A stretch of 56,584 nt of DNA, from contig QHVV01000112.1 of NCBI GenBank assembly GCA_003222385.1, positions 17,286 to 73,869 on the forward strand. Reading direction: 5' to 3'. Position numbers and translations under genes: made by a program. This DNA comes from Acidobacteriota bacterium. GTDB lineage: Bacteria; Acidobacteriota; Thermoanaerobaculia; UBA5066; Gp7-AA6. Below the pieces are notes generated by a model. It was given only the letters and a program-made list of their open reading frames with translations, made no database searches and had not been told where the DNA came from. Below, piece after piece: positions 2,716-42,373 of this stretch. The first letter of the stretch is position 1. The number at the start of each line of letters is the position of its first letter.

Positions 2716-2898
2716 TCAGGCGATTCGGGTCGGGCGTCGAGCGATCTGACCGGAGGCCTCACCGCCGCGTTCGCGACTCGGCTGGATGCGCACCACCCAG
2801 TGGCAGAAATCGCACTTGACCTTGCCGTCCGCCTCGATCGGGGTGCTGTTGGATCGGCCGCAATTCCGGCAGTGCCAGTTTCGGACGTCGTCTTTCAT
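2716..2898 (-). CDS. Small zinc-ribbon protein
   Basis: A 60-residue protein with two cysteine knuckles, CRNCG near residue 10 and CDFCH near residue 29, spaced as in a zinc ribbon. The final ligand of the second knuckle may be Cys or His. The tail of about 25 residues is basic and looks disordered. Such stand-alone ribbons commonly bind RNA, DNA or partner proteins; no specific role can be read here. It stands alone, divergent from the GT39 gene and followed by a strong hairpin. Start ATG (MKDDVRNWHC). Coding status is likely because the Cys spacing is regular and no other frame makes sense. Confidence 0.7.
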   Translation of the reverse strand: MKDDVRNWHCRNCGRSNSTPIEADGKVKCDFCHWVVRIQPSRERGGEASGQIARRPTRIA

Positions 2899-3098
2899 GA
2901 CTACTCGCTTTCACGCCGAAGACCGGCGACGGTCGCTTGCCGAATCGGCGGACGGAGCCGTCGGAGGGATCGGAACGGCTTTCAGCTTACCACGCGACCG
3001 GCTTACCCGGGGCCTGAGGGCTGAGGAGGGTGGAGAGTGCCCCGCGCGCCTATACTCGGAGCCGGTCGGACGGACGGACGCGCTCCCGTGCTTTGCGA

Positions 3099-4709: not shown

Positions 4710-4743
4710 CCGCGGCGCGACCCCTCTCCGAACGGTCCGGGCC

Positions 4744-23307: not shown

Positions 23308-25663
23308 CTATTTCGGCCGGAGGACCAGGGTCTTGCGCGGAGGCGCGACGAACGGAAGGTACTCGCCCCGCCTCCAGAGCGGCAGCAGATCGCGATAGCG
23401 GCGATCGAAGACGTTTCCCGACTGGCCGGTCGGGTGAATGAAGACGGCGGCGCCGGGATCGGCGAGGTCGACGATCTGCCGGTAGCTCGGCCCGTCTGTC
23501 ATCCGGAAGGAGCCGTCGAGCCGGTAAGCGCCGACGTTGACGGTCGAGGCATCGCCGCCCTGCCCCGCCTCCAGGCTGAAGATTCCGCGGAGGCCGGCGA
23601 CCGCCTCGAACACGCCGTGCGGGAATCGGGCGTGGTGAAGGCGATCCCAGCGCCACCGCGCCGGATCATGCCCGAGCCGTCCCCGAAGGAACGAGACTGC
23701 GCGCGCGAGCGTCGCGCTCCGGAAATCGGCGCACGCTTCCCGCGCCGGAGTCCGCACGTCGTCGCACCAGTCCGAATCCGAGGCGAGCGCGCGGATGAGA
23801 AATCGAGACCGGACGACGCCCGCCGGAACCGATCCGAGCTCGTCTTCCGGCATCCGCGCGAGCTCGCCGTACCAGGCGGCGTAGATCGCGGCCGCCGCCG
23901 ACTCCGGCGCGAACTCGCGATTCCAGGCGGAGAGTCTCGCGAGCGCGTCGCGCGACGGCGCATCGGCCGGCATAGTGTCGAGCAGCAACGGGAGGAGCTC
24001 TTCGGCCTGGAGCGAAACCCGGTCGAGCTGGATCGATCGGACGTCGGAAACGCCGAGCTTCCCCTCCGCGAGAATCCGCTGCGTGATGCGCCGCGCGCGG
24101 TAGGGCTCCTGCCAGTCGCCTGCTATCCGATCGGCGGCTCGGCCCGGCACGACCCGGTTGTTCGCGGCCACGAGGAAGCCGCGCGCGGGGTCGAGCGCGC
24201 GCGGGAGCTCTTCGAAGGGGACGTACCCCCGCCAGTCGTCCTCTCCCGCGCCCGACGCGGGAAGAAGACCGTCCGCCCGCGGGCGGATCGGGATCGCTCC
24301 CGACGCCGTGTAGCCGATGTGGCCGGCGACGTCGGCGTAGAGGAAGTTCTGCGGGGGCGCGCGGAACAGCCGGACCGCGGAGACGAACTCATCCCAGCCC
24401 GGGGCGCGGTCGATTCCCTCGATCGCTTCGGCCGTGCGATCGGAGTCGTCGAGCGCCGTCCACCGCAAGGCGACGGCGCGGCCGAGCGTCGACGCGCCTT
24501 CCAGGACGTCCGAGACGACCGGGCCGTGGACGGAAGAGCGAACGAGGACGACGGCGTCGGAGCCGCCGCGGACGCGGATCGTTTCGCGCCGCGTCTCGAA
24601 GCGCTTCCATTCCTCCCGCCACCGATACCGCGAAGGATCCGCCGGATCGAGCTTCTCGATGAAGAGGTCTTCGACGTCCGGTTCGAGGCTGGTGAGCGCC
24701 CACGCGATCCGATCGTTGTGCCCGATGACGACGCCCGGAAGGCCCGGGAGCGTCGCGCCCGCGACGGAGAATCCGGGCGCAACGAGACGCGCGACGTACC
24801 AGACCGACGGAGCGCGCAGCGCGAGGTGCGGGTCGTTCGCGAGGATCGGCTTTCCCGAGACGGTCCGGGAGCCCGCGAGGACCCACGAGTTGCTGCCGGG
24901 GCCCGGATCGTCGGGGTCGCGGGCGCCGGCGCGCTCGAACGCAGCGTCGAGCCGCTCCCAGACCGGGAACGGAAATCGGTCATCGGGCATGGGGAATCGA
25001 GGCGGAAATCGATTTCCGCTTGCCAATTTTCGATTCCCGGCTCCGGGCTTCCACTCTCCTTCCTCCAGGATCGTCGGCTCTTCCGGCACCGGCGGCAGCA
25101 GCTCCGCGGCGCGCTTCTCTCCGACGGCGGCGACGAAACGCGCCCGGCGGATCTCGTCGCGGGCGTTTCTCGCCAGATCCCAGGCCATCAACTTCGCCCA
25201 GACGAGGGAGTCGACCGGATCGAAGGGCGCCGGAGTGCAACGGAGGATCCGGAACTCGACCGGCCGCGCGGACGACGAAAAGAGGAACGAGTTGATCCCG
25301 CGGACGTAGGCCTCGACGAGCTCCCGCGCGCACGGCGAAAGACTTTTCCACGCCGACTCGGCGGCGCGCCGGAAGCCGATCGTCCGGAGAAACCGATCGG
25401 CCGGCGCCGATGCGCCGCTGGTACTCCATCTGCCAGAGCCGGTCGCGCGCGTGGACGTAGCCCAGGCCGAAGAGAGCATCACCTTCGCTCGCCGCGCGAA
25501 TCGTCGGGACCCCGTGGGCGTCGGTCTCGATCGTCACCCGCGCCGAGAGCCCGGAGACCCGAACCGCCCCGCTCTCGCGCGGGAAGGTCGAAAGCGCGAG
25601 AAGCACGAGCGCCGCGACCGCCGCGCCCGTCGACACGGCGAGCGCGACGAGAACCTTTTTCAA
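23308..25663 (-). pseudogene. Penicillin acylase family (Ntn hydrolase) gene, broken near the N-terminus
   Basis: Periplasmic Ntn hydrolase related to penicillin/acyl-homoserine-lactone acylases. The signal helix VLVALAVSTGAAVAALVLLAL and alpha-chain start VTIETDAHGVPTIRAASEGDALFGLGYVHARDRLWQMEYQRRIGAG lie in one frame. From about 25405 the protein continues in another frame at ADRFLRTIGFRRAAESAWKSL. Family members have about a dozen extra residues between these blocks (typically RL-E-x-G...L..D), so a short out-of-frame deletion is likely. The nucleophile region GSNSWVLAGSRTVSGKPILANDPHL and later motifs are intact. The start could be TTG 25663 or ATG 25732. A start inside the second frame would lack secretion. 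Confidence 0.8.
24992..25037. repeat. Nested inverted repeat inside the acylase linker
   Basis: A perfect 18-base palindrome, GCGGAAATCGATTTCCGC (25002-25019), is enclosed by GGGAATCGA (24992-25000) and TCGATTCCC (25029-25037). The local AT content is well above the surrounding gene. In frame it gives the low-complexity linker NRKLASGNRFPPRFP just before the catalytic beta chain. Confidence 0.65.
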
Positions 25664-25703
25664 GCCGGCGCGACTGCTAGGAAAGGGACATTCGAGCGAG
25701 AGT

Positions 25704-26249
25704 CTAGTCTTGGTCGCTTGCTCCGGGAACATCTCCGAGAACGAGCCCGAGATCGTACGAGCCGTCGCCGAACTCGAGGGTCAGGGCGCCCTCGGCAAAG
25801 ACGGTCCGCTCCAGAGACAGGTCGATCCCGGGCGGCATCCACGGAGCCAGGTTCACCACCATGATGCGATCGTCCGGATAGTAAGTGAGGAGGCCGCGCG
25901 GCGCCTGCTGCACAAGGTACGAGAGGAGCTGATCCGGGATCGGGATGAAGGAGAGCGCCTGGACCTTGTCCAGAACGAACGCCAGGAACCCGTCCTTCAG
26001 CCGGAGCTGCGAGAGGGTCGCTTTCGCCGAGAGCGGCACGCCGAACCGGTGAATCATTGCCGTGACGGCGAGCTCGCCCGGCGTCACGTGGACTTTCAGG
26101 TCCTCGATCTCCGGAATCCGCTCGGCGAGGAGGGCGACCAACCGGTTCAGGGTCGGCTCGTCGAAGATGAGCGCGAGACCGCGCCAGCGAACGCGAAGGT
26201 CCTCGGAGGATGCGAGAGGAATCCGCTCGGTCGCCGATTCACGGTCCAT
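25704..26249 (-). CDS. Conserved hypothetical protein
   Basis: A 181-residue protein without signal peptide or membrane helix. It reads like a two-sheet beta sandwich: VRWRGLALIFDEPTLNRLVALL, LKVHVTPGELAVTAMIHRFGVPLSAKATLSQLRLKDGFLAFVLD, then LLSYLVQQAPRGLLTYYPDDRIMVVNLAPWMPPGIDL. The alternating pattern suggests a lipid-binding or scaffold fold but I cannot name a family. A TAGAAT box, which contains the UbiA stop codon, ends six bases before its ATG, so it can be transcribed as a leaderless mRNA as well as from the operon. Confidence 0.75.
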   Translation of the reverse strand: MDRESATERIPLASSEDLRVRWRGLALIFDEPTLNRLVALLAERIPEIEDLKVHVTPGELAVTAMIHRFGVPLSAKATLSQLRLKDGFLAFVLDKVQALSFIPIPDQLLSYLVQQAPRGLLTYYPDDRIMVVNLAPWMPPGIDLSLERTVFAEGALTLEFGDGSYDLGLVLGDVPGASDQD

Positions 26250-26258: not shown

Positions 26259-27254
26259 CTAGGGGCTCAGGTTCGATGAAGCCAGGTACGCCAGGGCAAA
26301 ACCGATCTGCGCCGCCATCAGAAGCAGGTACATGTGCGTCCAGGCGGGATGGTTCTCGGTCCTCGCGAGCTCGTCCGGATTGCGCAGGAGGAGGCGCGCC
26401 GCATAGAGGCCCCAGCCCGCGAGCCCGACCCCGAGGATCGTGAGGAGCACGCGGTTGCCGGTCAAGAGGAACGCGCCGGGCCGGGCGGGATCGGGAAGAC
26501 CTGCAAGGACCGGCACCAGGAGCCACGGGACGACGAAGAACGGCGCGATCACCCGAGCCGCCGTCGAGACCCCGAAGCGAACCGGCAGCGTCCGGATCCC
26601 GTGCTCGCGGTCTCCCGGCATGTCGGAGAAATCCTTGGTCGACGTCGCGCCCAGGAGGAACAGCGCGAAGACCCCGCCGATCGCCCAGGGCTCGGGCAGA
26701 GCAACCGAAGCGATGAAAGACCACCCGGCGACCTTGAGCAGCCCCCCCCGCGTTACCGCAATCGTGAAATTCGACCAGAACCAGTGCCGTTTCGAGCGCC
26801 CGAACGCCGGAAACGAGTACACGAACGTCGCGAGAGCTCCGATCGAATAGATGAAGAACGCGGCGTGAACGTGCAGAGGAGCGCGCATCCGATCCGCGAA
26901 CGACTCATGCGGGTACGGGACGACCAGCCATGTCGGCACGATGGCGGCGACGTAAAGAAGCGCCGCGACCGCCCAGGCTTTCGGAATCTCGACCTCGCCC
27001 GTGACGAGCGGACGGTCCGGCTTGTTCCGTCGGTCGATCTCGAGGTCCGCGATCTGGTTGACGATGTTCGACGCCGCGTTCATCGCCGAGGCGCACAGGG
27101 ACCCGATCGCGACTGTCAGCAGGATCTGCCAGGTCACGCGCCTCGACACGTCCGGATTGTGTGCGGACCCGAACGCGCATACCGCGCCCGACAGAATCCC
27201 GAGGAGCGGCGGGAAGAGCGTGAAGGGGCGAGCGAGCCGCAGCCAGTGCTTCAT
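26259..27254 (-). CDS. UbiA-family prenyltransferase
   Basis: Polytopic membrane enzyme of 331 residues that joins a prenyl diphosphate to an acceptor ring or lipid. Both magnesium-binding motifs are visible: NQIADLEIDRRNKPDRPLVTG (first Asp-rich loop) and KDFSDMPGDREHGIRTLPVRFG (second). About eight to nine hydrophobic helices follow the family pattern. The start ATG 27254 (MKHWLRLARPFTLF) overlaps the stop of the upstream prenol-kinase fusion as ATGA, implying coupled translation and a shared pathway. The acceptor (quinone precursor, chlorin, glycerol lipid or other) cannot be told from sequence. Confidence 0.93.
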   Translation of the reverse strand: MKHWLRLARPFTLFPPLLGILSGAVCAFGSAHNPDVSRRVTWQILLTVAIGSLCASAMNAASNIVNQIADLEIDRRNKPDRPLVTGEVEIPKAWAVAALLYVAAIVPTWLVVPYPHESFADRMRAPLHVHAAFFIYSIGALATFVYSFPAFGRSKRHWFWSNFTIAVTRGGLLKVAGWSFIASVALPEPWAIGGVFALFLLGATSTKDFSDMPGDREHGIRTLPVRFGVSTAARVIAPFFVVPWLLVPVLAGLPDPARPGAFLLTGNRVLLTILGVGLAGWGLYAARLLLRNPDELARTENHPAWTHMYLLLMAAQIGFALAYLASSNLSP

Positions 27255-28597
27255 CCCGGCTGGACCGGCCACCAGACCGACCCCATCTCGACCGAAAGAG
27301 CGATCTCGAGAGCGATCAACCCGCCTGCGAACGTATTGAAGGCGTTCGCGAACTCGTGGTCGAGACGGAATCCCAGCCGGCGGCCCAGGTCCGTGAGAAC
27401 GCTCTCGGAGAGCGCGCCCAGGAATCCTCCGGCGAGGACCGCGATCACGAGGCCGCGCGGCAGCCAGCCCGCGACCCAGGCGGCGAGCGCGATCGCGACG
27501 GCGCCGGCGAACGCGGCTGCCGTTCCCGCGCGGGAGACCGCGCCGGGCATCCCGGGCGCGAGCGTCTCGAAAGTGAGCGGCGAACGGGGATGGCGACCGA
27601 ACAGCGTTCCGACCTCGGTCCCGAGAGTGTCCGCGAGCGCCGCTCCGAGCGCGCCCGCGAAAGCGGCGGCCGGCAGTCCCAGGACCAGGAACGCGATCGG
27701 CACGAGACAATTGGCAGCGACGTTCGCCGCTCCGCGGCGACCACTGTCGGCTTGCGCCACGCCGGCGTCTCGCTTCTCGCGGTAGCCCCACTTCGTCGCC
27801 GCGGTGGCCGCCAGGAAGAAGGCCCACAGAAGAGCGTAGGCGGGCCACCCGCCGTACGCCATCACGAGAAACCCGGCGACCGCCCCGGCCAGAGCGCCGG
27901 AGCGCGAGACGAGGCCGGTCCCTCCGCTCACGAGAGCCGCCGCGAAGTTCACCGCGAGGGCGACCCCGAGGCGCCCCCACGAGCCGGCGTGAAAGGGAGC
28001 GAGTGGCGCCTCCGGCCAGCGGCCGAGCTGGACGAGAAAGAGAGCGGTGGGAACGGCGGCGACCAGGTTGTCGTCGATCCCCGCCCGGACCGACTCCAGA
28101 AAAGCGTAGACCGCGGCTCCGGCGACGAGCAGCACCGCCGCGGAGAGCTCGAGCGGCCGGGCCGACACGAACCAGAAAACCAGGACGGACGCGGTCGCGC
28201 CCGCCGCCCAGTTCGCGACGAGACCGATCCATCGCTTGGTTCGGTTCCAGGGAAGCGTCGGGCCGTCCAGGAGCTCCCCCGCAATCGCGGCCGCGGGATC
28301 GCCGAAGGCCATCATCGCCCATACCGCCGCGGCCACCGTCAGATAGTGGTCGCGCAGGAGAAGCACCAGTGCGAGCACCATCGCGGCGTACGCCACGATG
28401 CCCGGGTCTCTCGATCTCTTCGCGTCGCGATAGATCCCGCGGCCGAAACGCGGCAGAACGAAGAGGTTGAAGAGGAGAGCGGCGAAGGCGACCGCCGCCG
28501 CCGATTTCCAGTCGAGCCATCGAAACGAGAGCGCGAAGAGGCCGAAGCCCGCGTGGATCGCCTTGCGGCTCCACTCGCCCGCGGTGATCGTCACCAC
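27251..28597 (-). CDS. Fused prenol kinase (VTE5/dolichol-kinase-like) and DUF92 prenyl-phosphate kinase (VTE6-like)
   Basis: A 448-residue membrane protein with two domains. Residues about 1-185 resemble the phytol/dolichol kinase family: RKAIHAGFGLFAL at the N-terminus, a GDPAAAIAGELLDGP motif, then RTKRWIGLVANWAAGATASV. Residues about 210-445 are DUF92, the VTE6 family: NFAAALVSGGTGLVSRSGALAG, GRRGAANVAANCLVPI, AGALGAALADTLGTEVGTLFG, and a GGFLGALSESVLTDLG tail. In plants VTE5 makes phytyl phosphate and VTE6 phytyl diphosphate, the prenyl donor for tocopherol. Here both steps sit in one chain overlapping a UbiA gene. It starts 5 bases before the rfbD stop-side boundary. The domain calls are by motif; the substrate is inferred. 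Confidence 0.83.
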   Translation of the reverse strand: MVTITAGEWSRKAIHAGFGLFALSFRWLDWKSAAAVAFAALLFNLFVLPRFGRGIYRDAKRSRDPGIVAYAAMVLALVLLLRDHYLTVAAAVWAMMAFGDPAAAIAGELLDGPTLPWNRTKRWIGLVANWAAGATASVLVFWFVSARPLELSAAVLLVAGAAVYAFLESVRAGIDDNLVAAVPTALFLVQLGRWPEAPLAPFHAGSWGRLGVALAVNFAAALVSGGTGLVSRSGALAGAVAGFLVMAYGGWPAYALLWAFFLAATAATKWGYREKRDAGVAQADSGRRGAANVAANCLVPIAFLVLGLPAAAFAGALGAALADTLGTEVGTLFGRHPRSPLTFETLAPGMPGAVSRAGTAAAFAGAVAIALAAWVAGWLPRGLVIAVLAGGFLGALSESVLTDLGRRLGFRLDHEFANAFNTFAGGLIALEIALSVEMGSVWWPVQPG

Positions 28598-28601: not shown

Positions 28602-29561
28602 TCACGCTTCCGGCCGCGCCCGTCGCGCCATGTACTCGAGAAGCGGCTCGCGGAAGTGCCGGATCGGGCGGTTGGTCAGGGCCTCGTATTTCGAGGTGTC
28701 GAGGACCGAATTGGACGGGCGCGACGCCGGCCGCGCGATCGCCGCCGCCGTTGTCGGGACGACACGGACGTCCCCGTGTCCCGCGAGGGTCAGGATCTGC
28801 CGGGCGAACTCGAACCACGTGACCTCGCCCCGGTTGGCGAAGTGGACGACTCCCGTGACGCCGAGCGTGAGAAGGGCGAGGATCGCTTCGGAGAGATCCG
28901 TCGTCGCGGTCGGTCGGCCTTTTTGATCGTCGACCACCGGCAGCGTCCGCTTCCCCCCCTCGACCTGCTGGAGGATCGCTTCGACGAAGTTCCACCCTCC
29001 CCGGCCGAAGAGCCACGACGCGCGGACGACGAGCGCGGTCGGCGACTGCAGCGCCGCCTCCTCCCCCGCCCGCTTTCCCCGGCCGTAGGCGGAGATCGGC
29101 GCGGTCTCGTCGAGCTCGGTGTAGGGCGCCTGCTTTTCTCCGTCGAAGACGAAGTCGGTCGAGACCTGCACGAGGCGCGCCCCGTGCCGGACGCAAGCCT
29201 CCGCGAGAATCGCGACGCCGTCCGCGTTGACCGCGAAGGCGGCGGCGTCGCTCTCGCACGCGTCCACCCGCGTGAAAGCCGCGCAGTTGATCACGATCTC
29301 TGGCCGGATCTGTCGAAACGCGCGCGCGACCTCTTCGACGTCGGTCACGTCCAGCTCCGCGCGGGGGCGCGGATAAACCTCGTACCCCGCGCCCGCGATC
29401 ACGGGAGTCAGTTCCGAACCGAGCATTCCCGACGCTCCCGTGATCAGGACGCGGAGACGCTCTTCCGCCGTGGGGCGCGGGGAAGCGAGAACTCCCGGCT
29501 GGGGCTCGGCGGAGGCGACGGCGGCTTCCGGAGCGAGTGAGCGACCCGGCTGCGACATCAT
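28602..29561 (-). CDS. rfbD: dTDP-4-dehydrorhamnose reductase
   Basis: Short-chain dehydrogenase of 319 residues that reduces dTDP-4-dehydro-L-rhamnose to dTDP-L-rhamnose. The NAD(P) motif is LRVLITGASGMLGSEL, with the substrate block INCAAFTRVDACESD, catalytic VQVSTDFVFDGEK and YGRGKRAGE (YxxxK), and GNWNF-type segment GRGGWNFVEAIL. It carries an N-terminal extension of about 35 Pro/Ala-rich residues that RfbD enzymes normally lack, so a start further in is possible. It follows rfbB by 10 bases. An rfbC epimerase gene is not present in the cluster. Confidence 0.93.
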   Translation of the reverse strand: MMSQPGRSLAPEAAVASAEPQPGVLASPRPTAEERLRVLITGASGMLGSELTPVIAGAGYEVYPRPRAELDVTDVEEVARAFRQIRPEIVINCAAFTRVDACESDAAAFAVNADGVAILAEACVRHGARLVQVSTDFVFDGEKQAPYTELDETAPISAYGRGKRAGEEAALQSPTALVVRASWLFGRGGWNFVEAILQQVEGGKRTLPVVDDQKGRPTATTDLSEAILALLTLGVTGVVHFANRGEVTWFEFARQILTLAGHGDVRVVPTTAAAIARPASRPSNSVLDTSKYEALTNRPIRHFREPLLEYMARRARPEA

Positions 29562-29571: not shown

Positions 29572-30615
29572 CTATCCGGGTGGTTTCGCCGTCGAGGAAG
29601 ACGTCGCGAGGCGGTCGCCGTACTGCGTCTTGTAGAACTCCTGGTAGGCGGCGTCCCTCTCCTTGATCGGTCGCCACCAGTCTTCCCGCTCCCCGTACCA
29701 TCGCACGGTTTCCGCGAGTCCCTCGTCGAACGGGGTCACGCTCCGGAAACCCAGGCGGCCGAGCTTGCCGGCGTCGAGTGAATAGCGCCGGTCGTGGCCG
29801 GGCCGGTCGTCCACGAACCGGATGAGGCTCTTCGGCTTCTGGAGGAGCGCGAGGACCTTGTGCGTGATCTCGATGTTCTCCGCCTCGTTTCCCCCCGCGA
29901 TGTTGTAGGTCTCTCCGGGCTCTCCGGCGTCGAGCAGGAAATCGATCGCCGCCGCGTGATCCTTCACGTAGAGCCAGTCGCGCACGTTGCGCCCGTCGCC
30001 GTACAGAGGCAGAGGATGGCCGTCGATCGCGTTCGTCACGAAGAGAGGGATCAACTTCTCCGGATACTGATAGGGCCCGTAATTGTTCGAGGCGCGCGTC
30101 ACCACGACCGGAACGCCGTATGACGCCCAGTACGAATACGCGAGGCGGTCGCCGCCCGCCTTCGAGGCGGCGTACGGGTTGCGGGGATTCAGCGGCGAAT
30201 CTTCGTGGAAAGAACCTTCCGCGATCGTGCCGTAGACCTCGTCGGTCGAGATCTGGATGAACTTCGCAATGCGCCGGCGGCGCGCCTCCTCGAGCAGCAC
30301 GAAGACGCCGCGGACGTCGGTCTCGATGAACGAAGCGTCTCCCAGGAGGGACCGGTCGACGTGCGTTTCCGCGGCGAAATTGACGACCGCGTCGCAGCCG
30401 TCCATGGCAAGGCGAACCATGTCGGGGTCCGCGATGTCCCCCTTGACGAAACGGTAGTTCCGCCGGCCGGCGACGTCGGCCAGGCTCGCCGGATTCGCGG
30501 CGTAGGTGAGCTTGTCGAGGTTGACGACGGTGACCCCGTCGCCGCGCGACTCGAAGAGGCGTCGGACGAAGTTCGACCCGATGAAGCCGCAGCCCCCGGT
30601 GACGAGGACCTTCAC
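29572..30615 (-). CDS. rfbB: dTDP-glucose 4,6-dehydratase
   Basis: Extended SDR enzyme of 347 residues that converts dTDP-glucose to dTDP-4-keto-6-deoxyglucose. It shows VLVTGGCGFIGSNFVRRL (NAD-binding), NFAAETHVDRSL, ISTDEVYG (catalytic Thr-Asp-Glu), YAASKAGGDRLAYSYW (YxxxK) and the substrate segment RASNNYGPYQYPEKLIP. The GTG start at 30615 overlaps the rfbA stop (GTGA), so the two are translationally coupled. The enzyme feeds RfbD two genes down; together they make the activated 6-deoxysugar for cell-surface glycans. Confidence 0.96.
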   Translation of the reverse strand: MKVLVTGGCGFIGSNFVRRLFESRGDGVTVVNLDKLTYAANPASLADVAGRRNYRFVKGDIADPDMVRLAMDGCDAVVNFAAETHVDRSLLGDASFIETDVRGVFVLLEEARRRRIAKFIQISTDEVYGTIAEGSFHEDSPLNPRNPYAASKAGGDRLAYSYWASYGVPVVVTRASNNYGPYQYPEKLIPLFVTNAIDGHPLPLYGDGRNVRDWLYVKDHAAAIDFLLDAGEPGETYNIAGGNEAENIEITHKVLALLQKPKSLIRFVDDRPGHDRRYSLDAGKLGRLGFRSVTPFDEGLAETVRWYGEREDWWRPIKERDAAYQEFYKTQYGDRLATSSSTAKPPG

Positions 30616-31676
30616 AGGATCCCGATCTCGGAGTTGTCGCTGACCAGGAAGCGGTGAACCCGCGGCCGTTCCGCGCCGGGGTGGATCCGGACGTGCTTGC
30701 CGATCAGCGAGTCCGCAATCCGGCCCGGGATCCGTTCGAGCGCCGAGCCTTCGAGGACGATCGAGTTCTCGATTTCGCACCTCTCGATGCGGCAGCCCGG
30801 ACCGATCGACGTGTACGGTCCCACGAAGGCGGCCCGGATCTCGGTCCCGGCCCCGATGATCGCGGGGCCGCGGATGGTGCTCGCATAGATCTGGGCGCCC
30901 GGCTCGATGACGACCTTGCCCTCCACGCGCGAGCCTTCGTCCAGCCCCTCGGCGCCGCTCGCGAGGAACGTATCGAGAATGATCCGGTTCGCCTCCAGCA
31001 TGTCTTCGACTTTGCCGGTGTCCTTCCACCAGCCCGAGACCACGTGGGGATGGACGCTCCTTCCATGGTCGATCAGCCACTGGATGGCATCCGTGATCTC
31101 GAGCTCGTTTCGCGCGCTGGGCCGGATGGACTTGACGGCGTCCCAGATCGTGTCGTCGAACATGTAGACGCCGACGAGAGCCAGGTTCGAGCGCGGCTCC
31201 TTCGGCTTCTCCGTCAGGCGGATCACCGTGCCGTCGGAGAGCTCGGCGACCCCGAACTGCTCGGGGTTCGGAACCTTCGCGAGCAGGATCTGGGAGTTGC
31301 AGCCGATCCTCCGGTACTCCTCGACGAGCGAGGCGATCCCGTCGGCGATCAGGTTGTCACCCAGATACATGACGAACGGTTCCCTTTTGAGGAACGGCTC
31401 CGAAATGAGAACAGCGTGCGCCAGGCCGAGGGGATCGCCCTGCTCGATGTAGGTGAACTCGGCTCCGAACCGGGAGCCGTCGCCGAGCGCCTCCCGGATC
31501 TCGTCTTTCGTCTCGCCGACCACGACCCCGATGCGCCGGATTCCCGCGGCCACGATGGCTTCGACCCCGTAGAAGAGCACCGGCTTGTTCGCGACCGGGA
31601 CGAGCTGCTTCGCCCGGGTGTAGGTGAGCGGACGCAGACGGGTGCCCTTGCCGCCCGACAGGATCAGGCCCTTCAT
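30612..31676 (-). CDS. rfbA: Glucose-1-phosphate thymidylyltransferase (long form)
   Basis: Nucleotidyltransferase of 354 residues making dTDP-glucose from dTTP and glucose-1-phosphate. The N-terminal catalytic domain has MKGLILSGGKGTRLRPLT, KQLVPVANKP and YLGDNLI, with VSGWWKDTGKVEDMLEANRIIL near residue 220. Residues from about 245 are a left-handed beta-helix (GAQIYASTIRGPAIIGAGTEI...SIVLEGSAL), which the short enterobacterial RfbA lacks; this long form is common outside Proteobacteria. It begins the dTDP-sugar genes, 24 bases after lptD. Confidence 0.95.
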   Translation of the reverse strand: MKGLILSGGKGTRLRPLTYTRAKQLVPVANKPVLFYGVEAIVAAGIRRIGVVVGETKDEIREALGDGSRFGAEFTYIEQGDPLGLAHAVLISEPFLKREPFVMYLGDNLIADGIASLVEEYRRIGCNSQILLAKVPNPEQFGVAELSDGTVIRLTEKPKEPRSNLALVGVYMFDDTIWDAVKSIRPSARNELEITDAIQWLIDHGRSVHPHVVSGWWKDTGKVEDMLEANRIILDTFLASGAEGLDEGSRVEGKVVIEPGAQIYASTIRGPAIIGAGTEIRAAFVGPYTSIGPGCRIERCEIENSIVLEGSALERIPGRIADSLIGKHVRIHPGAERPRVHRFLVSDNSEIGIL

Positions 31677-31700: not shown

Positions 31701-34007
31701 CTACCGCGTCCCGAAAATCCGGTCGAGCGACCCGTTCATGTCGAGCAGCGTCCCGACGTCCTTCAGGTTCACGACGAGCCGGTAGTCGCGCCGCGTCGTG
31801 GGAGGCAGCCGGAGCTGGCGAACCTCGAGGAAGAGCGCGTAACACGACCCGGTGTAGGACAAGAGCGAGCGGTCCTCCAGCAGGCGGCTCTGCTGCGCGT
31901 CGTAGTTCAACTGCGTATCGATGCGCAAGGCCTTTCCAAGGTCGATCCCGGCGGCGAGACGGATCTGATCGGTCCGCGAAGAAGTCGTTCCGCCGACGGG
32001 AGCGGGTTCGCTTCCGAACCAGGTCGCGTTGACGTAGTTGGTCTTCCAGTTGACCGACGTCGCGACCGAGACGGCCGTGATCCGCGACACGTGGATGTCG
32101 TAAGCGACGCGGCCGTCGAAGCTGAACAGGCTGCCGGGGACGAGCCGGAGGGTCCCTTCGACCGGGCCCGTCTTCTCGACGAACGACTCGAACGAGGACG
32201 CCGTCGACGCGGCAACCTGGGGCAGCCGGAACGCGTGGGTCTGGGCGATCTCGAACGACGCGATCTCGTTGGCTCCGCCGCCGGCCTTCGGATCGGCCGG
32301 GCGCGCCAGCAGCCGGTTCACGATCGCGTAGCGGATCTGGTTCCTGCCGAGAGCCGTGTCCACTTCGTCGTAGACCGGAATCGAGAGCGGATCCCCGACG
32401 TCCGACGCGTAGTCGTAGTCGACGCGCGGCTCGATGACGTGCTTGAAGCGTCCGAACGGGCCGATCGATCCCTCGTAGATGCGGGAGAACGAGGGACCGA
32501 CGAGCGACGCTCCGGCTTCGGCGACCGTCCGCGTCCGGCTCTCGCCCGTGAACGCATTCTGGGCCTCGTTCGTCGACTCGGTGTACTCCGTCCAGCGGCC
32601 CCCGCCTTTCGCGGTCAGTGAGAGCCACGGAACGCTCTTCCATGGAATGGAGATCGTCGGATGGAAGTCCGCGCGCCCGTATTGCCCGTGCATCAGACCC
32701 GGCCCGCGGTCTACGTAGAGCCAGGAGACCGATGACTCGAGAGCGAGGAAGAACGGCGAGTTCCCGAGGCGCGCGGTCCGATGGAAGTACTCGAGCGAGG
32801 GAAGCCGCTCCTGGATGACCTCGGTTCCGAAGAAAGTCTCGCTCCGCTCGACGCGCAGATTGACCGAGTCGTCGCCGAAGTTCTTCGTCAGGAAACCGCG
32901 GGAGAGGGTCTGCCGCGCCGCCGACAGCGCGAAGGCCCGCTCGAAGTCGCGAAGGAATTGCTCATCCGAATACTCGCGCACCGACAGGACTCCGCGAAAT
33001 CCGAACGGGAGGTCGTCGGAGACGTGGTCCAGCCGGGTCTTCCACCGCGTCCTCTCTCGCTTTGCGAACACGCCGGACCGGCCGTCCGCCAGGATGCAGG
33101 GCTGCGTCCCCGTCGGCTCGTCTTCGAACGGCACGCAGACGGTGGAGTCGGGGTCGCGGATCATGTATGCCTGCACGATTCCGGCGGACTCGGGCGTTGG
33201 AGTCCAGCGCAGCTCCTCTCCGAGGCCGAGCGCCCCGTGGGAGTACATGTCGAGCTGCGTCGTCGAGTCCGTCGCGCGCCCCGTGACCCAGTAGTACGAG
33301 AGGCCGAGGTAGGCGCCGCGGGTGCTGTTGAATCCGACGCCCGGGACGAGCAGGCCGGAGGCGCGGTCCTGCTTCGTGGGCCAGACGAGCCAGGGAGTGA
33401 AGAGGACGGGTACCGGCCCCGCGCGAAGGGAGACGTTCCTCATCCGCGCGTAATCGTCCAGGGTCACGTCCGCGGTCGAGAGGTAGAACGACCACTCGGG
33501 GTGCGGCAGATCGCACGAAGTGAAGATGCCTTTCTCGATCCGGTACGTTTCGGGCCCGATCTTGTCGATCGCCTCCGCGACGACGTGGTACGTGGGAGCC
33601 AGATCGGCCGTCGCGTTCTCCAGCCGCCCGGTCTTCTCCTCGACGCGGAAGACGCCGTGGCTGCCGGAGAGCCGCGTCGGCCCCTGGTCGATCACGACGT
33701 GGCCATCGAGCGTCGCGGTCTTCGTGGGAAAGTCGTATCGAGCGCGGTCCGCCGTGATCTTGACGTCCTGGTATTCGATCGTGACCTCGCCCGATCCCTC
33801 CCAGAAAACGTCCTTCTCGTAGTGAGCCGGGTTCTTCGTGGTCAACCGGACTTCCCCGCCCTTTTCCGGCACCCGAAAGCGAATCTGGAACGTCGGTTTG
33901 GTCTTCAAGCGCGACTCGAATGGGTCGCTGGGGCCGAACGGCGTCTGGGCGGCCGCGGGAAGAGCGAGCAAGGAGAGGAGCGCGGCGACCGGAACACGTC
34001 GGCTCAC
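31701..34007 (-). CDS. lptD: LPS-assembly protein LptD
   Basis: Outer-membrane lipopolysaccharide insertase, 768 residues. The signal peptide ends near PAAAQTPFG. Residues about 45-145 form the OstA/LptA-like jellyroll (VTIEYQDVKITADRARYDFPTKTATLDGHV; YRIEKGIFTSCDLPHPEWSFYL). The rest is the beta-barrel LptD domain (RNVSLRAGPVPVLFTPWLVWPT; GLLVPGVGFNSTRGAYLGLSYYW). The conserved T-x-C...W segment is present. The gene starts with GTG 3 bases after the methyltransferase stop and is followed by rfbA, joining lipopolysaccharide export to surface-sugar synthesis. It indicates a didermic envelope with LPS. Confidence 0.93.
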   Translation of the reverse strand: MSRRVPVAALLSLLALPAAAQTPFGPSDPFESRLKTKPTFQIRFRVPEKGGEVRLTTKNPAHYEKDVFWEGSGEVTIEYQDVKITADRARYDFPTKTATLDGHVVIDQGPTRLSGSHGVFRVEEKTGRLENATADLAPTYHVVAEAIDKIGPETYRIEKGIFTSCDLPHPEWSFYLSTADVTLDDYARMRNVSLRAGPVPVLFTPWLVWPTKQDRASGLLVPGVGFNSTRGAYLGLSYYWVTGRATDSTTQLDMYSHGALGLGEELRWTPTPESAGIVQAYMIRDPDSTVCVPFEDEPTGTQPCILADGRSGVFAKRERTRWKTRLDHVSDDLPFGFRGVLSVREYSDEQFLRDFERAFALSAARQTLSRGFLTKNFGDDSVNLRVERSETFFGTEVIQERLPSLEYFHRTARLGNSPFFLALESSVSWLYVDRGPGLMHGQYGRADFHPTISIPWKSVPWLSLTAKGGGRWTEYTESTNEAQNAFTGESRTRTVAEAGASLVGPSFSRIYEGSIGPFGRFKHVIEPRVDYDYASDVGDPLSIPVYDEVDTALGRNQIRYAIVNRLLARPADPKAGGGANEIASFEIAQTHAFRLPQVAASTASSFESFVEKTGPVEGTLRLVPGSLFSFDGRVAYDIHVSRITAVSVATSVNWKTNYVNATWFGSEPAPVGGTTSSRTDQIRLAAGIDLGKALRIDTQLNYDAQQSRLLEDRSLLSYTGSCYALFLEVRQLRLPPTTRRDYRLVVNLKDVGTLLDMNGSLDRIFGTR

Positions 34008-36373: not shown

Positions 36374-36448
36374 GAGCGCAGGAATGTTAACCCGCCGCGC
36401 GGAAGCCGACTTCCCGATCGGAGTCGGCGGCTCGGTTACTCTTCCCGG

Positions 36449-36859
36449 GTGAAACGGATTCTCGCGATCGACTTCGGTGAAAAGCGAATCGGGCTGGCGA
36501 CCGCGGACGCCTCGGCCGGCCTCGTCACCGCGCGGCGCACGATTCTCCGCGCGAGCGACCGATCTGCGGCGACCGAGATCGTGCGGTTCTGCCGGGAGGA
36601 GGAGATCGGGACTCTCCTGGTCGGCCTGCCGCGATCTCCGGAGGGCAAGGAAAGCGCGATCTCACCGCGGATCCGCTCCTTCGCCGACCGGCTCGCCCGG
36701 GAGACGGCTCTGCCGGTCGTCTTCCACGAGGAAACGCTGACGTCCGACGAGGCCCTGCGGCGCCTGCGCGGCCGCCGCTCCCGCGCGGGTGTCGACGCCG
36801 AAGCGGCCGCAGTCCTGCTCGAAGACTGGCTCGCCGACCACGGCCGGGAGTCGGCTTGA
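36449..36859 (+). CDS. ruvX: Holliday junction resolvase-like RuvX (YqgF)
   Basis: RNase H-fold nuclease of 136 residues, involved in pre-16S rRNA 5' end processing and possibly recombination. Catalytic acidic residues are visible in ILAIDFGEKRIGLATAD (first Asp), the Glu region LLVGLPRSPEGKES, and VVFHEETLTSDEA. The GTG start at 36449 has a TACTCT box six bases upstream and no ribosome site. It overlaps mltG by four bases, a common bacterial pairing. Its stretch of N-terminal open frame further upstream has no coding support. Confidence 0.93.
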   Translation: MKRILAIDFGEKRIGLATADASAGLVTARRTILRASDRSAATEIVRFCREEEIGTLLVGLPRSPEGKESAISPRIRSFADRLARETALPVVFHEETLTSDEALRRLRGRRSRAGVDAEAAAVLLEDWLADHGRESA

Positions 36860-37971
36860 GCGCGCGGCGTCGGTTCTCGGGGATCGTTCTCGTCGCGCTC
36901 TTCTCGGTCGCCGCGGCCGCGGCGTACTTCTACTACCGGCTGGAGAACCCGCCCGGCTCGCGTCGGCCGGGCGAAGAAGTGACGGTCGAGATTCCGCCGG
37001 GCACTTCCACTTCCGAGATCTTTCGACGGTTGAAAGCGGCCGGCGTCATCGAGGACGCGCGCCTGGCCGAGATCTACTACCGGCTCCACCGCCGCCGGAC
37101 CGCGCTCCAGGCCGGCGAGTACCGTTTCCATCATCCGATGCCGATCGACGAGGTGATCAACCGGATGGGGCGCGGCGACGTCGTCCGCCACGCGATCGTG
37201 GTCCCCGAAGGACTCACCGCCGAAGAGACGTTCGAGCTCTTCTGGAAGGAGGGGATCGGCGGCCCCGACGCGTTCCATGCGACACTCGTCGAGACGGAGC
37301 TCGTCCCCGGCTTGACGAAGGGAGTCTCGGACCTCGAAGGGTTCCTCTTCCCGGACACCTACGTGGTCACGCGAACGACGTCCGCAAAACAGATCGTCGA
37401 TCGAATGGTCGCGAACTTCCGACAGCACTTCAGCCGCGAGATCCAGCGTCGCGCCGGGGCGCTCGAGCTAACCACGCGCCAGGCGGTGACTCTCGCTTCC
37501 ATCGTCCAGCGGGAAAGCGCCGTCAAGTCCGAAGGGCCCTTGATCGCCGGCGTTTATCTCAACCGGCTGCATCGGGGAATGCGACTCCAGGCGGACCCAA
37601 CCGTGGTCTACGCGTTGAAGCGGGACAAAAAGTGGGCCGGCCTGCTCCACCGGTCCGACTACGACTACGAATCGCCGTACAACACGTACCTGCATGACGG
37701 GCTGCCTCCCGGCCCGATCTGCAGTCCCGGAGCAGACGCCCTTCGGGCGGCGGTCAACCCGGCGCGCACCGCCTATCTCTACTTCGTCGCGGACCCGTCG
37801 AGCGGCGGCCACACTTTCTCGGCGACGTACGAGGACCACCTGGTCGCGATCGCGATGGCGAGGCGCGCGCGCGCCGTGGCCGGCGAGACTCCGCAGTTGC
37901 TGGGACCTCAGACGCCGGTGACACCGGGAACCCCGGCCGAGACGCCCGCTTCCGGGGCGGGGGGTAAGTAG
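36856..37971 (+). CDS. mltG: Endolytic murein transglycosylase MltG
   Basis: Inner-membrane enzyme of 371 residues that cleaves nascent peptidoglycan strands and sets their length. The N-terminal helix (GIVLVALFSVAAAAAYFYY) precedes a LysM-like region and the YceG domain. The catalytic glutamate sits in TLASIVQRESA, and the conserved LQADPTVVYALKRD, DYESPYNTYLHDGLPPGPICSPG and NPARTAYLYFVADPSSGGHTFS follow. The TTG start at 36856 overlaps the ruvX TGA. A Pro/Thr/Ala-rich tail of about 25 residues is extra. A long hairpin follows. Confidence 0.94.
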   Translation: MSARRRFSGIVLVALFSVAAAAAYFYYRLENPPGSRRPGEEVTVEIPPGTSTSEIFRRLKAAGVIEDARLAEIYYRLHRRRTALQAGEYRFHHPMPIDEVINRMGRGDVVRHAIVVPEGLTAEETFELFWKEGIGGPDAFHATLVETELVPGLTKGVSDLEGFLFPDTYVVTRTTSAKQIVDRMVANFRQHFSREIQRRAGALELTTRQAVTLASIVQRESAVKSEGPLIAGVYLNRLHRGMRLQADPTVVYALKRDKKWAGLLHRSDYDYESPYNTYLHDGLPPGPICSPGADALRAAVNPARTAYLYFVADPSSGGHTFSATYEDHLVAIAMARRARAVAGETPQLLGPQTPVTPGTPAETPASGAGGK

Positions 37972-38049: not shown

Positions 38050-39201
38050 TCACTTCTCGTAGACGATGGTCTTCAGCCTCGGGAACTTCGTCCGCAGGAA
38101 ATCTTCCATGATCTTGTCCTCGGTCCAGGCGATCTGCGTCCCGTCCACGAAGTACGTCGGGGTCGAATTCACCCCGAGCCGGTATCCCTCGTCCATGTCT
38201 TTGCGTACGCGGTCGAAGCTTTCGTCCCGCAGGTAGCAGCCGAGAAAGTCGGATCGCGCCGCTCCTTCCCCTTCGGCGGAGGTGATGGCGAGCTCGTCGA
38301 TCGCCGAGACCGAGAGGTTGTCCTGGCGGCCGTACACCAGCTCCTTGAACCGGAAGAACGCCGGCGCGCCGGACAGGCGGAAAAGACAGTCTCCCGCGGA
38401 CGCCGCTTTCATGGCCCACGCGTGGGTAAACCAGAGCGGAAAAAATTTGTAGTGCCGTCGCACGCTGGCGATCCCGTTGTTCGCGGCCAGGAGCTTGTCG
38501 AGCTGTTTACCCCGGAAGCGGCAGTACTGGCACTCCATGTCCGCGTACTCGACGATCGTCACGGCCGCGTCGGCGGGACCGGAGACGCGCTGCGCCGTCA
38601 GGTCGATCCGGCGGCGGCGCTCGGCGCGCGGGTCGGCCTGGAAGTCCCAGAGCGACCCCGCGAGATAGATGCTGCCGTCGGGGGTCACGAGCCCCGGTAT
38701 CGCGACGGAACCGAAACCGCTCTCGAGGACGATCGCGATCCCTTTCAGCCCGGCCGTGTCGCGTTCCGGCACGAAATGCATCCGCGCCCTCGCGCCGACC
38801 AGCTTCGTGTACCGCGCTCCGATCCAGGCAAGGTCCGCCTCGGACCGGAGCGGCGTCGGGCTCGGGTTCCGGAAGGAGTCCCCTTCGAAGAACCACTTGC
38901 CGTCGTTCGAAACGAACACGACCGCCTCGGCCTTCAACGACTCGTAGCGGCCGGTCCGCTGGACCCGCCACGACGAGAAGCCCGGGAGCTTCAACGTCGC
39001 CTTCTGGACCGTGATCTTGCCGTCGGGATCCCAGGGCAGGTACAGCCCGGCGTACTCGACGAGCCGTTTCTCGGTTCCCGCGGCCGGGGCCTCGGGGACC
39101 GGGGCGGAAGGATGCGTCGGCGCCCGTTTCGTCCTGGCCGGAGCCAGCCCGAAGAGCGACAGGGCCGCGAGAAGCAGAGCCGCGCGATTTCTTTTTCTCA
39201 T
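38050..39201 (-). CDS. Secreted DsbA/thioredoxin-like protein, two-domain
   Basis: A 383-residue exported protein. After a signal peptide (ALLLAALSLFGLAPA), residues about 45-205 form a first domain (VQKATLKLPGFSSWRVQRTG; EAVVFVSNDGKWFFEGDSFRNP; GSVAIPGLVTPDGSIYLAG). The second is a DsbA-like fold with VTIVEYADMECQYCRFRGKQLDKL (CQYC redox motif) and VNSTPTYFVDGTQI (cis-Pro). A paralogue with the same layout lies 3.2 kb upstream. It is last in its operon, 34 bases after the phosphodiesterase-TPR gene. It could be a disulfide oxidase, an isomerase or a redox sensor; partners are unknown. Confidence 0.85.
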   Translation of the reverse strand: MRKRNRAALLLAALSLFGLAPARTKRAPTHPSAPVPEAPAAGTEKRLVEYAGLYLPWDPDGKITVQKATLKLPGFSSWRVQRTGRYESLKAEAVVFVSNDGKWFFEGDSFRNPSPTPLRSEADLAWIGARYTKLVGARARMHFVPERDTAGLKGIAIVLESGFGSVAIPGLVTPDGSIYLAGSLWDFQADPRAERRRRIDLTAQRVSGPADAAVTIVEYADMECQYCRFRGKQLDKLLAANNGIASVRRHYKFFPLWFTHAWAMKAASAGDCLFRLSGAPAFFRFKELVYGRQDNLSVSAIDELAITSAEGEGAARSDFLGCYLRDESFDRVRKDMDEGYRLGVNSTPTYFVDGTQIAWTEDKIMEDFLRTKFPRLKTIVYEK

Positions 39202-39235
39202 CCCGCCAATTCTCTCCTGTCTCCGCGAAGATCTC

Positions 39236-41266
39236 TCAGATGCCGCGGCGGACCATGTTCAGCGACTGGACCACGCCCGGCTGGTCCGGCTTCAACTTCA
39301 GCGACCGTTGAAAGAGCGCGACCGCCTCGTCCCGATGTCCCAGGCAAGTCTGAAAGAGGCCGAGCGCGTTCAAGGTCTCGGTGTCGGTGGTCTTTGCCTC
39401 GAATCGCGAGAGCGCTTCGAGGGCGCCCGGGCAGTCGCGCCACTTCTTGAACTTCAACAGACCGAGCTCGCGCGCGAAAGGCTCGTTTTCCGGGAAGCGC
39501 CGAACAGCCTTCTCCAGCAGAGAGCGCGCGGACGGAAGCCGCCCCTTGCTCTCGAACTCGCCGACCCAGTCGGCGATCGTCCGCTCCGGCTCGGCGTGAC
39601 CCGCATCGAGGGAGCGGAAGAGCCAATCTTCCGCCTTCGCGTCTTCCGTCTTCATCCGATAGAGGATCGCGAGGTTGAACATGGGGGACGAGTAGTCCGG
39701 CCGAAGCTCGAGCGCCTTCAAGAGAGCGGGCTCGGCGGCGGTCAAGTCGCCCACGGTCTCGCGCAGGTAGACCCCGAGGTTGTTCCAGGCGCCTTCGGTC
39801 ATCCCGGGCCGGTCTCCCGCGGCCGGTGCGACCGGCCGGCTCTCCGCTCCCGTCAGGTATCCGAGGGCCTTGAGCTTCTTCGCGTATTCGCTCGCCTGCT
39901 CCGCGGTGATCGACTCCGCGGCCACGCGCCGGACGGTCGCCGTCGAGAAAACGTCCTTCCGGGGAGGGGGGCGAAGTCCGGCGAACGCAGCGGTCACCGG
40001 TTTCCCGGTCATCCGCCGGTCCGCCGGCAGATCGAGCAGGGCGAGAACGGTCGGCGCGACGTCGAAGATCGAAACCTTCGCGCGGGCCTTCGACGGGCGT
40101 ACGCGCGCGCCCCAGGCGGCGAAGACTCCGGTCAGGCGGTGCCAGTACGCGGCCGTCGACCAGTTGAGCGACGACCGCGCGCAGGTCCGGTCGGCGCCCC
40201 ACCGGAACCCGTGGTCGGAGTGCACCAGGAGAGTGGCTCCGTCCTCTCTGGCGCGGCGCATCCACTGGCCGAGCATCCGATCCACCACGCCGTAATAGAC
40301 GTCGACCGCCCGGTGGTATCGGGCGAAGTCTTCTTCGCTCGTGCAATCGAGGCGCGGAGGCGAATAAGGAGCGAAGACGTGACCGATCTCGTCCGTGCCC
40401 TCCAGGTAGAGCGCCATCAGGTCGGGCCGGGTCCGGTCGTAGAGGTCGCGGGCGATGTGATGGTTCACGCGAGTCGCGGCGAGGATCCGCGAGAGCGCGA
40501 CGATCGGGTTCTCCATCCCGGCGCCGCTCGCCCGCGCCGAGGAGATTTCGGCGGAGGGAACGTCGACGAACCGCGCGAGCTCGGCGTCCGTCACGGCGCC
40601 GTCGCGCGCCACGATCTGCTCGACTCCGGCGGAGAGCGTCGCGGGATACGCGGCCCCCGCGCGCGGAAGATCGCCGAAGAGAAGCGGGCTCGCCCGGTCC
40701 GAGACGAAAAACCCGTTGACCTCCTCGGCCGGATGCGTCGCCCACCATCCCACGACTCCGACCTTTTTTCCGGCGGCGGAGGCCACGTTCCAGACCGCGG
40801 GAACCGCGCGCGAGAATCCGGAGATGGGGAGCTTCACGCCGGTCCGGGGATCCGTCTCCTGGAAGTCGAGGATGCGGTGCACGTCGGCGCCGACTCCCGT
40901 CGCGGCCGTCGTCCACAGGATGGGAGACAGGACCGGCAGGAAGCTCGCCAGGTTTCCCTGGAATCCTTCCGACGCGAGCCGCGCCCAGTTGGGCATCTTT
41001 CCCTCGCGCGACAGACGGTCGAGGATTTCCCAGTCGAGCCCGTCCAGGCCGAGCCAGATCACGGGAGCCGGCGCTGTCGCGGGACGCGGAGATCGCGCGG
41101 TTTCGTCCGCATCTTCGATCGGAGTCACCGCCGCCGCCGGCGCGCCGGTCTCCCGGGACGGCCCGGCGGAGCGGGCCGCGATCTCGGTCCGGCGGCAGGC
41201 GAAGATAGAGAACGCGGCGAGGGGAAGCGCGCAGAGGAGCAAGGCGCGCTTGCGACGCATGGTCAA
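39236..41266 (-). CDS. Alkaline-phosphatase-fold phosphodiesterase with C-terminal TPRs, lipoprotein
   Basis: A 676-residue extracytoplasmic protein. The signal ends in a possible lipobox (FSIFAC). The type I phosphodiesterase/nucleotide pyrophosphatase domain starts at VIWLGLDGLDWEILDRLSREGKMPNWARLASEG, where the metal Asp is LDGLD. LSPILWTTAATG supplies the nucleophile Thr, and ALYLEGTDEIGHVF, LLVHSDHGFRW and further His complete the metal site. From about residue 475 onward there are TPR-like helices (MTEGAWNNLGVYLRE; ALLKALELRPDYSSPMFNLAILYRM; AVALFQRSLKLKPDQPGVV). Substrates of such proteins include phosphodiesters and GPI/phospho-glycan ethanolamine. ATG 41260 is an alternative start. 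Confidence 0.87.
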   Translation of the reverse strand: MTMRRKRALLLCALPLAAFSIFACRRTEIAARSAGPSRETGAPAAAVTPIEDADETARSPRPATAPAPVIWLGLDGLDWEILDRLSREGKMPNWARLASEGFQGNLASFLPVLSPILWTTAATGVGADVHRILDFQETDPRTGVKLPISGFSRAVPAVWNVASAAGKKVGVVGWWATHPAEEVNGFFVSDRASPLLFGDLPRAGAAYPATLSAGVEQIVARDGAVTDAELARFVDVPSAEISSARASGAGMENPIVALSRILAATRVNHHIARDLYDRTRPDLMALYLEGTDEIGHVFAPYSPPRLDCTSEEDFARYHRAVDVYYGVVDRMLGQWMRRAREDGATLLVHSDHGFRWGADRTCARSSLNWSTAAYWHRLTGVFAAWGARVRPSKARAKVSIFDVAPTVLALLDLPADRRMTGKPVTAAFAGLRPPPRKDVFSTATVRRVAAESITAEQASEYAKKLKALGYLTGAESRPVAPAAGDRPGMTEGAWNNLGVYLRETVGDLTAAEPALLKALELRPDYSSPMFNLAILYRMKTEDAKAEDWLFRSLDAGHAEPERTIADWVGEFESKGRLPSARSLLEKAVRRFPENEPFARELGLLKFKKWRDCPGALEALSRFEAKTTDTETLNALGLFQTCLGHRDEAVALFQRSLKLKPDQPGVVQSLNMVRRGI

Positions 41267-41275
41267 GCGAGGAAA

Positions 41276-42373
41276 CTACCGGGCCGCCGGCTTCGAAGCA
41301 GGCGCGGGCTTGCCCGCCGGCGACAGCCTGTCTTTCAAGTAGGCCTCGAAGAGGTCCGGCTCCGCCGAGACGAAGTTGCCGTCGTGCAGGAACGATGGGG
41401 TGCCCGAAAGCCCGAGCCGCAGGGCGAGGCGGATGTCGCGGAGGACCCGTTCCCGCGCCCGTCCGCTCGAGAGCTCGGATTCGAACTTCTCCTTCGCGCC
41501 GGCTGCCTCTGCGATATCGGAGGCGAGCTGGCGGGCGGTCGCCGCAGTCGTTCCCTCGCGGGTGAAGAGCGTCTCCTCGTACTTCGCGTAGAGCGCCGCG
41601 TCCACGTTCGCGAGCGCGGCGCCGTACTCCGCGGCCGGGAAGGCCCAGTCGTGGACTTTCGCGAGCGGGAGAAGCCTCACCTCCATCGCTCCGCCCTTTT
41701 CGACCACGAACTTCTTCACCTCGGGCGCGCGCACGCGGCAGCGCTCGCACTGGAAGTCTACGAACTCGGTGACGTAGAAGCTGCCCTTCGCCGGGCGGAT
41801 GCCGGAGCTTTCCGCGAGCAGCTTGCGTCGGATCGCCGGAGCGTCCGAGGAAAGCGGCACGAACTCCCCGATCATCAGTGTCGCTCCGTCGTCGGAGACG
41901 AATCCGGGAATGGAGACCGGCGCGTTCTCCGCCTCCCGGAGGGTGATCGTGATCGGCTTCAACGAAGCCCGGGTCGAGTCTTCGACCTTCACCCTGGCCG
42001 GCAGGCCGTAGGCCTCCGAGAGTGAACCTTCGATCGGGGGCACGTCCGCGGCGGCATTGAACGGGCGCTTCGCCATTCGCCGCACGAGGTCGTGGAAGAC
42101 CTCTCCGACGAAGACCTCGTCCTTCGTCCGGTCGACGAGGGCGACGTTCGATTCCCGATGGAGCTTCGACTCGCAGGTCCGCTCGACGCGATAGGTCTCG
42201 AAGCCTGCGATCTCGACCTCCCGGCTCTCGCTCACACGGATCAGCGAGTTCGGATACCACGAGTACCAGCCGCCGAAGAAGTGGACCAGGCGGTTGCGCG
42301 TCTCGACGTCGGCGGCCGCGGGCGAGGCCGCGGCGAGCGCCAAAATCAGAGCCAGGAAGGCGATTTTTCGCAC
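41276..42373 (-). CDS. Secreted DsbA-like protein, paralogue of the one at 38-39 kb
   Basis: About 365 residues, with the same layout as the other DsbA-like protein: signal peptide (IAFLALILALAAASPAAA), an N-terminal domain (SREVEIAGFETYRVERT; VALVDRTKDEVFVGEVFHD; APVSIPGFVSDDGATLMIG) and a DsbA-like domain with FYVTEFVDFQCERCRVRAPEVKKFV (CERC motif) and LGLSGTPSFLHDGNFV (cis-Pro). The frame opens at GTG 42382, but TAACGT overlaps that codon, so GTG 42373, seven bases downstream, is the likelier leaderless start. It precedes the phosphodiesterase-TPR gene by 10 bases. Confidence 0.85.
   Translation of the reverse strand: MRKIAFLALILALAAASPAAADVETRNRLVHFFGGWYSWYPNSLIRVSESREVEIAGFETYRVERTCESKLHRESNVALVDRTKDEVFVGEVFHDLVRRMAKRPFNAAADVPPIEGSLSEAYGLPARVKVEDSTRASLKPITITLREAENAPVSIPGFVSDDGATLMIGEFVPLSSDAPAIRRKLLAESSGIRPAKGSFYVTEFVDFQCERCRVRAPEVKKFVVEKGGAMEVRLLPLAKVHDWAFPAAEYGAALANVDAALYAKYEETLFTREGTTAATARQLASDIAEAAGAKEKFESELSSGRARERVLRDIRLALRLGLSGTPSFLHDGNFVSAEPDLFEAYLKDRLSPAGKPAPASKPAAR

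Follow-up and report, generated by a model that had tools for sequence, protein, structure and literature searches.

Few genes for prenol and prenyl-phosphate kinases are known, and this handful comes from plants and cyanobacteria (PMC9782597). Among them are VTE5, a phytol kinase, and VTE6, for which comparison with bacterial COG1836 sequences led to the proposal that it is a phytyl-phosphate kinase (PMC9782597). In plants, the pair takes geranylgeraniol and geranylgeranyl phosphate as well (PMC13415981). In dolichol kinases, a CTP motif with the consensus DxxAxxxGxxxGx8KKTxEG has been described (PMC5853391). Our literature search found no account of the gene cluster presented below; a bare VTE5-VTE6 fusion in bacteria may have been noted before, in vom Dorp 2015 or Seaver 2014.

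The window, that is, the whole 56,584-nucleotide stretch of acidobacterial DNA analysed here, encodes a membrane protein of 448 aa with a GTG start (27251-28597, minus strand), in which a CdsA/dolichol-kinase-like N-terminal domain precedes a DUF92 domain of the VTE6 family. Its TGA stop overlaps the ATG start of a UbiA-family prenyltransferase of 331 aa (26259-27254, minus strand) by 4 bp, so that the two genes share the letters ATGA. Both reading frames and their overlap were found as reported in a preliminary description of this DNA, whose identification of LptD, RmlA, RmlB, RmlD and a thiolase among the neighbours also proved right in a Pfam search. The spacing is operon-like throughout. 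The gene for RmlD, a dTDP-4-dehydrorhamnose reductase (28602-29561, minus strand), ends 4 bp before the fusion and is preceded by those for RmlB, a dTDP-glucose 4,6-dehydratase (29572-30615, minus strand), and RmlA, a glucose-1-phosphate thymidylyltransferase of the long type (30612-31676, minus strand), which overlap by 4 bp. All three proteins score above the cut-offs of their models (TIGR01214, TIGR01181 and TIGR01208, respectively). Further upstream lies the gene for the outer-membrane LPS assembly protein LptD (31701-34007, minus strand), a conserved neighbour of the fusion. On the other side, an orphan protein of 181 aa (25704-26249, minus strand) begins 9 bp past UbiA. It has no Pfam match, is kept beside UbiA in close relatives and is a candidate for an extra component.

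Elsewhere in the window, a penicillin-amidase gene (23308-25732, minus strand) is split over two frames. One of its reading frames (24980-25732) has a plausible start for the family, the other (23308-25482) matches profile positions 44-667, and the cause is either a frameshift within the gene or an error of sequencing or assembly. The long reading frames at 36436-37428 (minus), 39198-42260 (minus), 2786-4747 (plus) and 51723-53153 (minus) have no Pfam match at E<=1e-5, and some of them may not be real genes.

By profile comparison, the C-terminal half of the fusion (residues 201-448; 27251-27997, minus strand) belongs, with plant VTE6, to DUF92/TIGR00297. The Pfam model PF01940 (DUF92) matches residues 219-401 with E=2.9e-37 and 128.9 bits against a gathering threshold of 27.5, and TIGR00297 matches with E=2.1e-35 and 122.6 bits, which is under its curated cut-off of 205.85. 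TIGR00297 is also matched by all 61 aligned fusion sequences at E<=0.5 (best 2.2e-68), and the DUF92 domain is present in 27 of the 27 relatives scanned. The residues D323-T324...E328-x-G330 and the glycines G349, G352 and G358 are invariant. We take COG1836 to correspond to DUF92.

The N-terminal half (residues 1-200; 27998-28597, minus strand) has seven predicted helices and an RKxxH motif at residues 11-15. In the window protein, it has no Pfam or NCBIfam match of its own. Among the relatives, the N domain matched CTP_transf_1 in 2 of 27 (best 7.4e-5) and had no NCBIfam match. The dolichol-kinase motif, relaxed so that K/R followed by G is accepted at its KKTxEG end, occurs in register in 49 of 61 N domains and in 3 of 3050 shuffled sequences. 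The window protein falls outside these 49, owing to D111, which replaces the fourth motif glycine held by most relatives; it keeps D100, A103, G107, K121 and G125. In hhalign runs, which are single pairwise comparisons and not database searches, the N domain aligned to the CdsA proteins of the same genome with E=8.9e-6, across the CTP motif, and to the C domain of the fusion with 4e-4, and the C domain aligned to CdsA with 1.5e-4. AlphaFold models of the fusion and of its N domain are confident (pLDDT about 94; N domain 94.3). In a Foldseek search of the PDB with the N-domain model, the top match was the CDP-DAG synthase 4q2g with a probability of 0.97 and a TM score of 0.52, the next best reaching about 0.2, although no E-value reached significance (best 0.3). 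The model of the N domain by itself told more than that of the full-length fusion, which gave no useful match in the PDB. Searches of PDB sequences returned no match for the fusion profile and one, judged to be due to chance, for the N-domain profile. VTE5-like references were sought on plasmids, with no match.

The motif in register, the alignment to CdsA, the alignment of N to C domain and the predicted fold together place the N domain in the CTP-transferase superfamily with the CdsA/dolichol-kinase fold, and this superfamily is the level at which it can be placed; an assignment to a subfamily is not possible. The preliminary description had put this half in the dolichol/phytol kinase family. 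Motif, alignment and fold carry that proposal to the superfamily, whereas the domain's own Pfam and NCBIfam searches were blank. The broader claim of two lipid-kinase-type domains in one chain held up, with a DUF92/VTE6-family domain at the C terminus, preceded by one of the CTP-transferase superfamily that bears the CTP motif of dolichol kinases. Because the C domain can be aligned both with the N domain and with CdsA, the sequences suggest that the fusion consists of two homologous kinase domains in tandem. A fused two-step CTP-dependent lipid-alcohol kinase is a prediction well supported by homology, and a phytol kinase would be one possible kind of it.

In a survey of 297 genomes, all of them Acidobacteriota, the fusion was found in 99 (in a few of them as a fragment where a contig ends), and DUF92-type matches without the fusion in 26. 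The fusion is neither a chance reading frame nor an assembly join, because about 90 further genomes of the phylum have it as a single uninterrupted frame. The UbiA subfamily, called by profile at E<=1e-40, is present in 84 genomes, every one of which (84 of 84) also has the fusion; 15 genomes have the fusion without this UbiA. Counted by family, 37 families have both, 7 the fusion only and none UbiA only, with the total of 80 families taken from their numbering; Fisher values on these family counts ignore phylogeny. UbiA lies directly downstream of the fusion and on the same strand in 53 of the 84 genomes, next to it in another orientation in 3, and farther away or on a different contig in 28, in some perhaps through breaks in the assembly. 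One of the unlinked cases is the complete genome of Sulfidibacter corallicola, where both genes are present. The fusion profile also matched 18 of 19 genomes reached through UbiA loci, most of which had been picked because UbiA there had no adjoining fusion. The genome survey for the fusion beside UbiA that had been proposed earlier thus returned, within Acidobacteriota, both co-directional adjacency and strict co-occurrence, which together support a functional link between the two proteins. The fusion itself has some UbiA-independent use, given the 15 genomes that keep it without this UbiA, unless UbiA is incomplete there or too diverged for the threshold. Three loci of one family (f41) and three of another (f16) belong to this group; in f16, RmlB and two SDRs still precede the fusion.

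UbiA matches PF01040 with E=2.3e-32 and 112.7 bits against a threshold of 34.2. It carries the motifs NQxxDLxxDxxNKPxRPL and KDFxDxxGD, and the Asp residues of both Asp-rich motifs are invariant in 81 of 81 sequences. Near the C terminus, ENHPxWxHMY is a signature of the subfamily. The nearest solved structures by profile are digeranylgeranylglyceryl phosphate (DGGGP) synthase (6m31, 2.8e-21) and chlorophyll a synthase (5.7e-19). UbiA stays below every NCBIfam cut-off listed, for example with 95 against 313 bits for ChlG and 62 against 296 for the GGGP geranylgeranyltransferase, and it scores weakly, not at equivalog level, with the quinone, heme O and phosphoribosyl models. The genome's other UbiA proteins are CyoE, an MqnP-like enzyme encoded beside UbiX (the latter read from sequence) and a protein like decaprenyl-phosphate phosphoribosyltransferase. 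These are separate, stronger candidates for heme O, quinone and phosphoribosyl transfer, and we rejected the idea that the window UbiA serves the genome in making quinone or heme. With these functions covered elsewhere, it probably has a distinct acceptor of its own that is neither a standard quinone nor heme. Relatives with small genomes have this UbiA and one other with an NPRT-type motif.

What is observed are the identities of the domains, their catalytic motifs, the conservation of the operon and the co-occurrence. From this, we propose that the fusion sits in the membrane and phosphorylates a prenol in two CTP-dependent steps to feed UbiA, a reading to which we give a probability of roughly 60%. 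Here, the N domain would use CTP to phosphorylate a prenyl alcohol to the prenyl phosphate, a further phosphate added by the C domain (DUF92) would yield the diphosphate, and the co-translated UbiA would attach this to its own acceptor. DGGGP synthase and chlorophyll synthase use C20 diphosphates, and as these enzymes are the nearest to UbiA, the donor would most likely be a C15-C20 prenol. The order of the reactions, the substrate and the product are inferred, as is the source of the alcohol, which may be recycled or come from outside. The preliminary description is confirmed in what it observed and partly supported in its biochemical interpretation.

The surroundings of the fusion bear on the product. 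A recurring gene order runs from MEMO over lptD, rmlA, rmlB, rmlD, one or two SDRs and an HpnA-like SDR to the fusion and UbiA, with different parts absent in different lineages. In many Acidobacteriota (12 of the loci inspected), the gene immediately upstream of lptD encodes a MEMO/AmmeMemoRadiSam-B protein. In 33 of 50 informative loci, lptD is located within 7 kb upstream of the fusion, and in a MAG of Thermoanaerobaculum aquaticum, lptD, fusion and UbiA are consecutive. The fusion and lptD are also close in Sulfidibacter and in a Holophagae genome, where UbiA is located elsewhere, and SDR and rml genes remain with the fusion in several genomes that do not have this UbiA. The suggestion of a surface lipid, made speculatively before, gains support from the proximity of lptD, including at loci with UbiA elsewhere. 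As the pathway appears to be a widespread acidobacterial trait set in an outer-membrane/sugar-nucleotide operon, its product is probably an envelope lipid. Only tentatively do we go further and suggest that the fused kinase and this distinct UbiA form a widespread pathway dedicated, in Acidobacteriota, to a so far undescribed product, either a prenylated lipid of the outer membrane or a glycolipid associated with LPS, and that this pathway is organised jointly with LptD and dTDP-sugar synthesis.

The same persistence of lptD and the RmlA/B/D and SDR genes where UbiA is absent or distant would also be expected if the fusion were a kinase for long-chain polyprenols of the undecaprenol type, recycling the glycan carrier lipid for the LPS/rhamnose pathway next to it, with UbiA as a co-inherited user of polyprenyl diphosphate for another lipid. 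The dolichol-kinase motif of the N domain fits this as well. A monophosphate suffices for recycling, however, which leaves the second step of DUF92 unexplained; the fusion is present in every genome with UbiA, and the nearest solved relatives of UbiA take C20 diphosphates. We therefore regard carrier recycling as unlikely.

The preliminary description had suggested a salvage module for phytol, geranylgeraniol or another polyprenol, which in its strict form would mean true salvage of phytol, farnesol or geranylgeraniol from the environment. The pairing of the domains fits the logic of VTE5 and VTE6, as does the acceptance of geranylgeraniol and its phosphate by the plant pair (PMC13415981). Moreover, the SDR upstream of the fusion matches HpnA (TIGR03466) in many relatives at E=1e-70, which is below the model's cut-off, and we infer that the group could act on lipid alcohols or aldehydes. 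Against this, no protein of the window genome matches HpnA at E<=1e-30, and what is conserved across the phylum is a place beside lptD, not one in a catabolic or mobile context. The genome also encodes two trans-polyprenyl synthases of its own and a dxr gene (read from sequence), which makes salvage from outside possible yet unneeded. Environmental salvage as the true function thus seems improbable. Geranylgeranyl reductase was considered as an obligatory partner and rejected, with no match in 3 of 8 genomes and none above the cut-off in any. The CdsA genes of the genome are separate from the fusion. A second uppS-cdsA pair at the end of contig C192 is distinct from the uppS-cdsA-dxr operon on contig C103 and represents either a paralogue or a contaminant contig.

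With 6m31 as its best PDB match (E=2.8e-21), UbiA could also be a DGGGP-synthase-like enzyme for archaeal-type ether lipids. We rejected this route as very unlikely, since a search for GGGP synthase (PcrB, PF01884) gave no match in the window genome, nor in the majority of the 8 genomes tested, and UbiA scores far under the NCBIfam cut-offs for the enzyme. Placement of the N domain in the CdsA/dolichol-kinase superfamily, with no subfamily, would accommodate a kinase for another lipid, such as diacylglycerol in the manner of the CTP-dependent Dgk1, linked to UbiA by shared membrane-lipid regulation only, but DUF92 is the family of phytyl-phosphate kinase and the co-occurrence with a family that uses prenyl diphosphates would be left unexplained, so that we consider this highly unlikely.

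If the two-step prenol kinase reading is correct, the module suggests that a common soil phylum has a prenylated lipid still to be assigned, and a bacterial kinase on one chain, coupled throughout a phylum to a single subfamily of prenyltransferases, would be a simple system in which to study both phosphorylation steps.

Taken together, the locus resembles several known systems and is identical to none of them. With plant and cyanobacterial VTE5 and VTE6, it shares the DUF92/COG1836 family of the C domain, a CTP-dependent lipid-kinase motif and fold in the N domain, and a presumed two-step phosphorylation that feeds a prenyltransferase. Unlike in these systems, the acidobacterial domains form one chain and stand beside lptD and sugar-nucleotide genes, and the N domain is known as a superfamily member only. 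The dolichol kinases SEC59, DOLK and AtDOK1 have their motif in register with the fusion N domains, where it is relaxed at the KKTxEG end; these N domains, however, are bacterial, fused to DUF92 and about 200 aa long, compared with 569 aa for AtDOK1. CdsA (CTP_transf_1) resembles the N domain in fold and in the region of the active-site motif, as judged by Foldseek and hhalign, whereas RKxxH and LPWNxxK(S/T)W are specific to the fusion family. DGGGP synthase and chlorophyll synthase, the best PDB profile matches of UbiA, share with it PF01040 and both Asp-rich motifs. The window UbiA differs from both as a distinct subfamily with its C-terminal ENHPxWxHMY and with scores far below all equivalog cut-offs listed, and from DGGGP synthase also in that no GGGP synthase partner was found in its genome. 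The parts thus come from known families, and what appears to be new is their arrangement in a single chain, the coupling to a distinct subfamily of UbiA throughout the phylum and the lptD/sugar-nucleotide neighbourhood.
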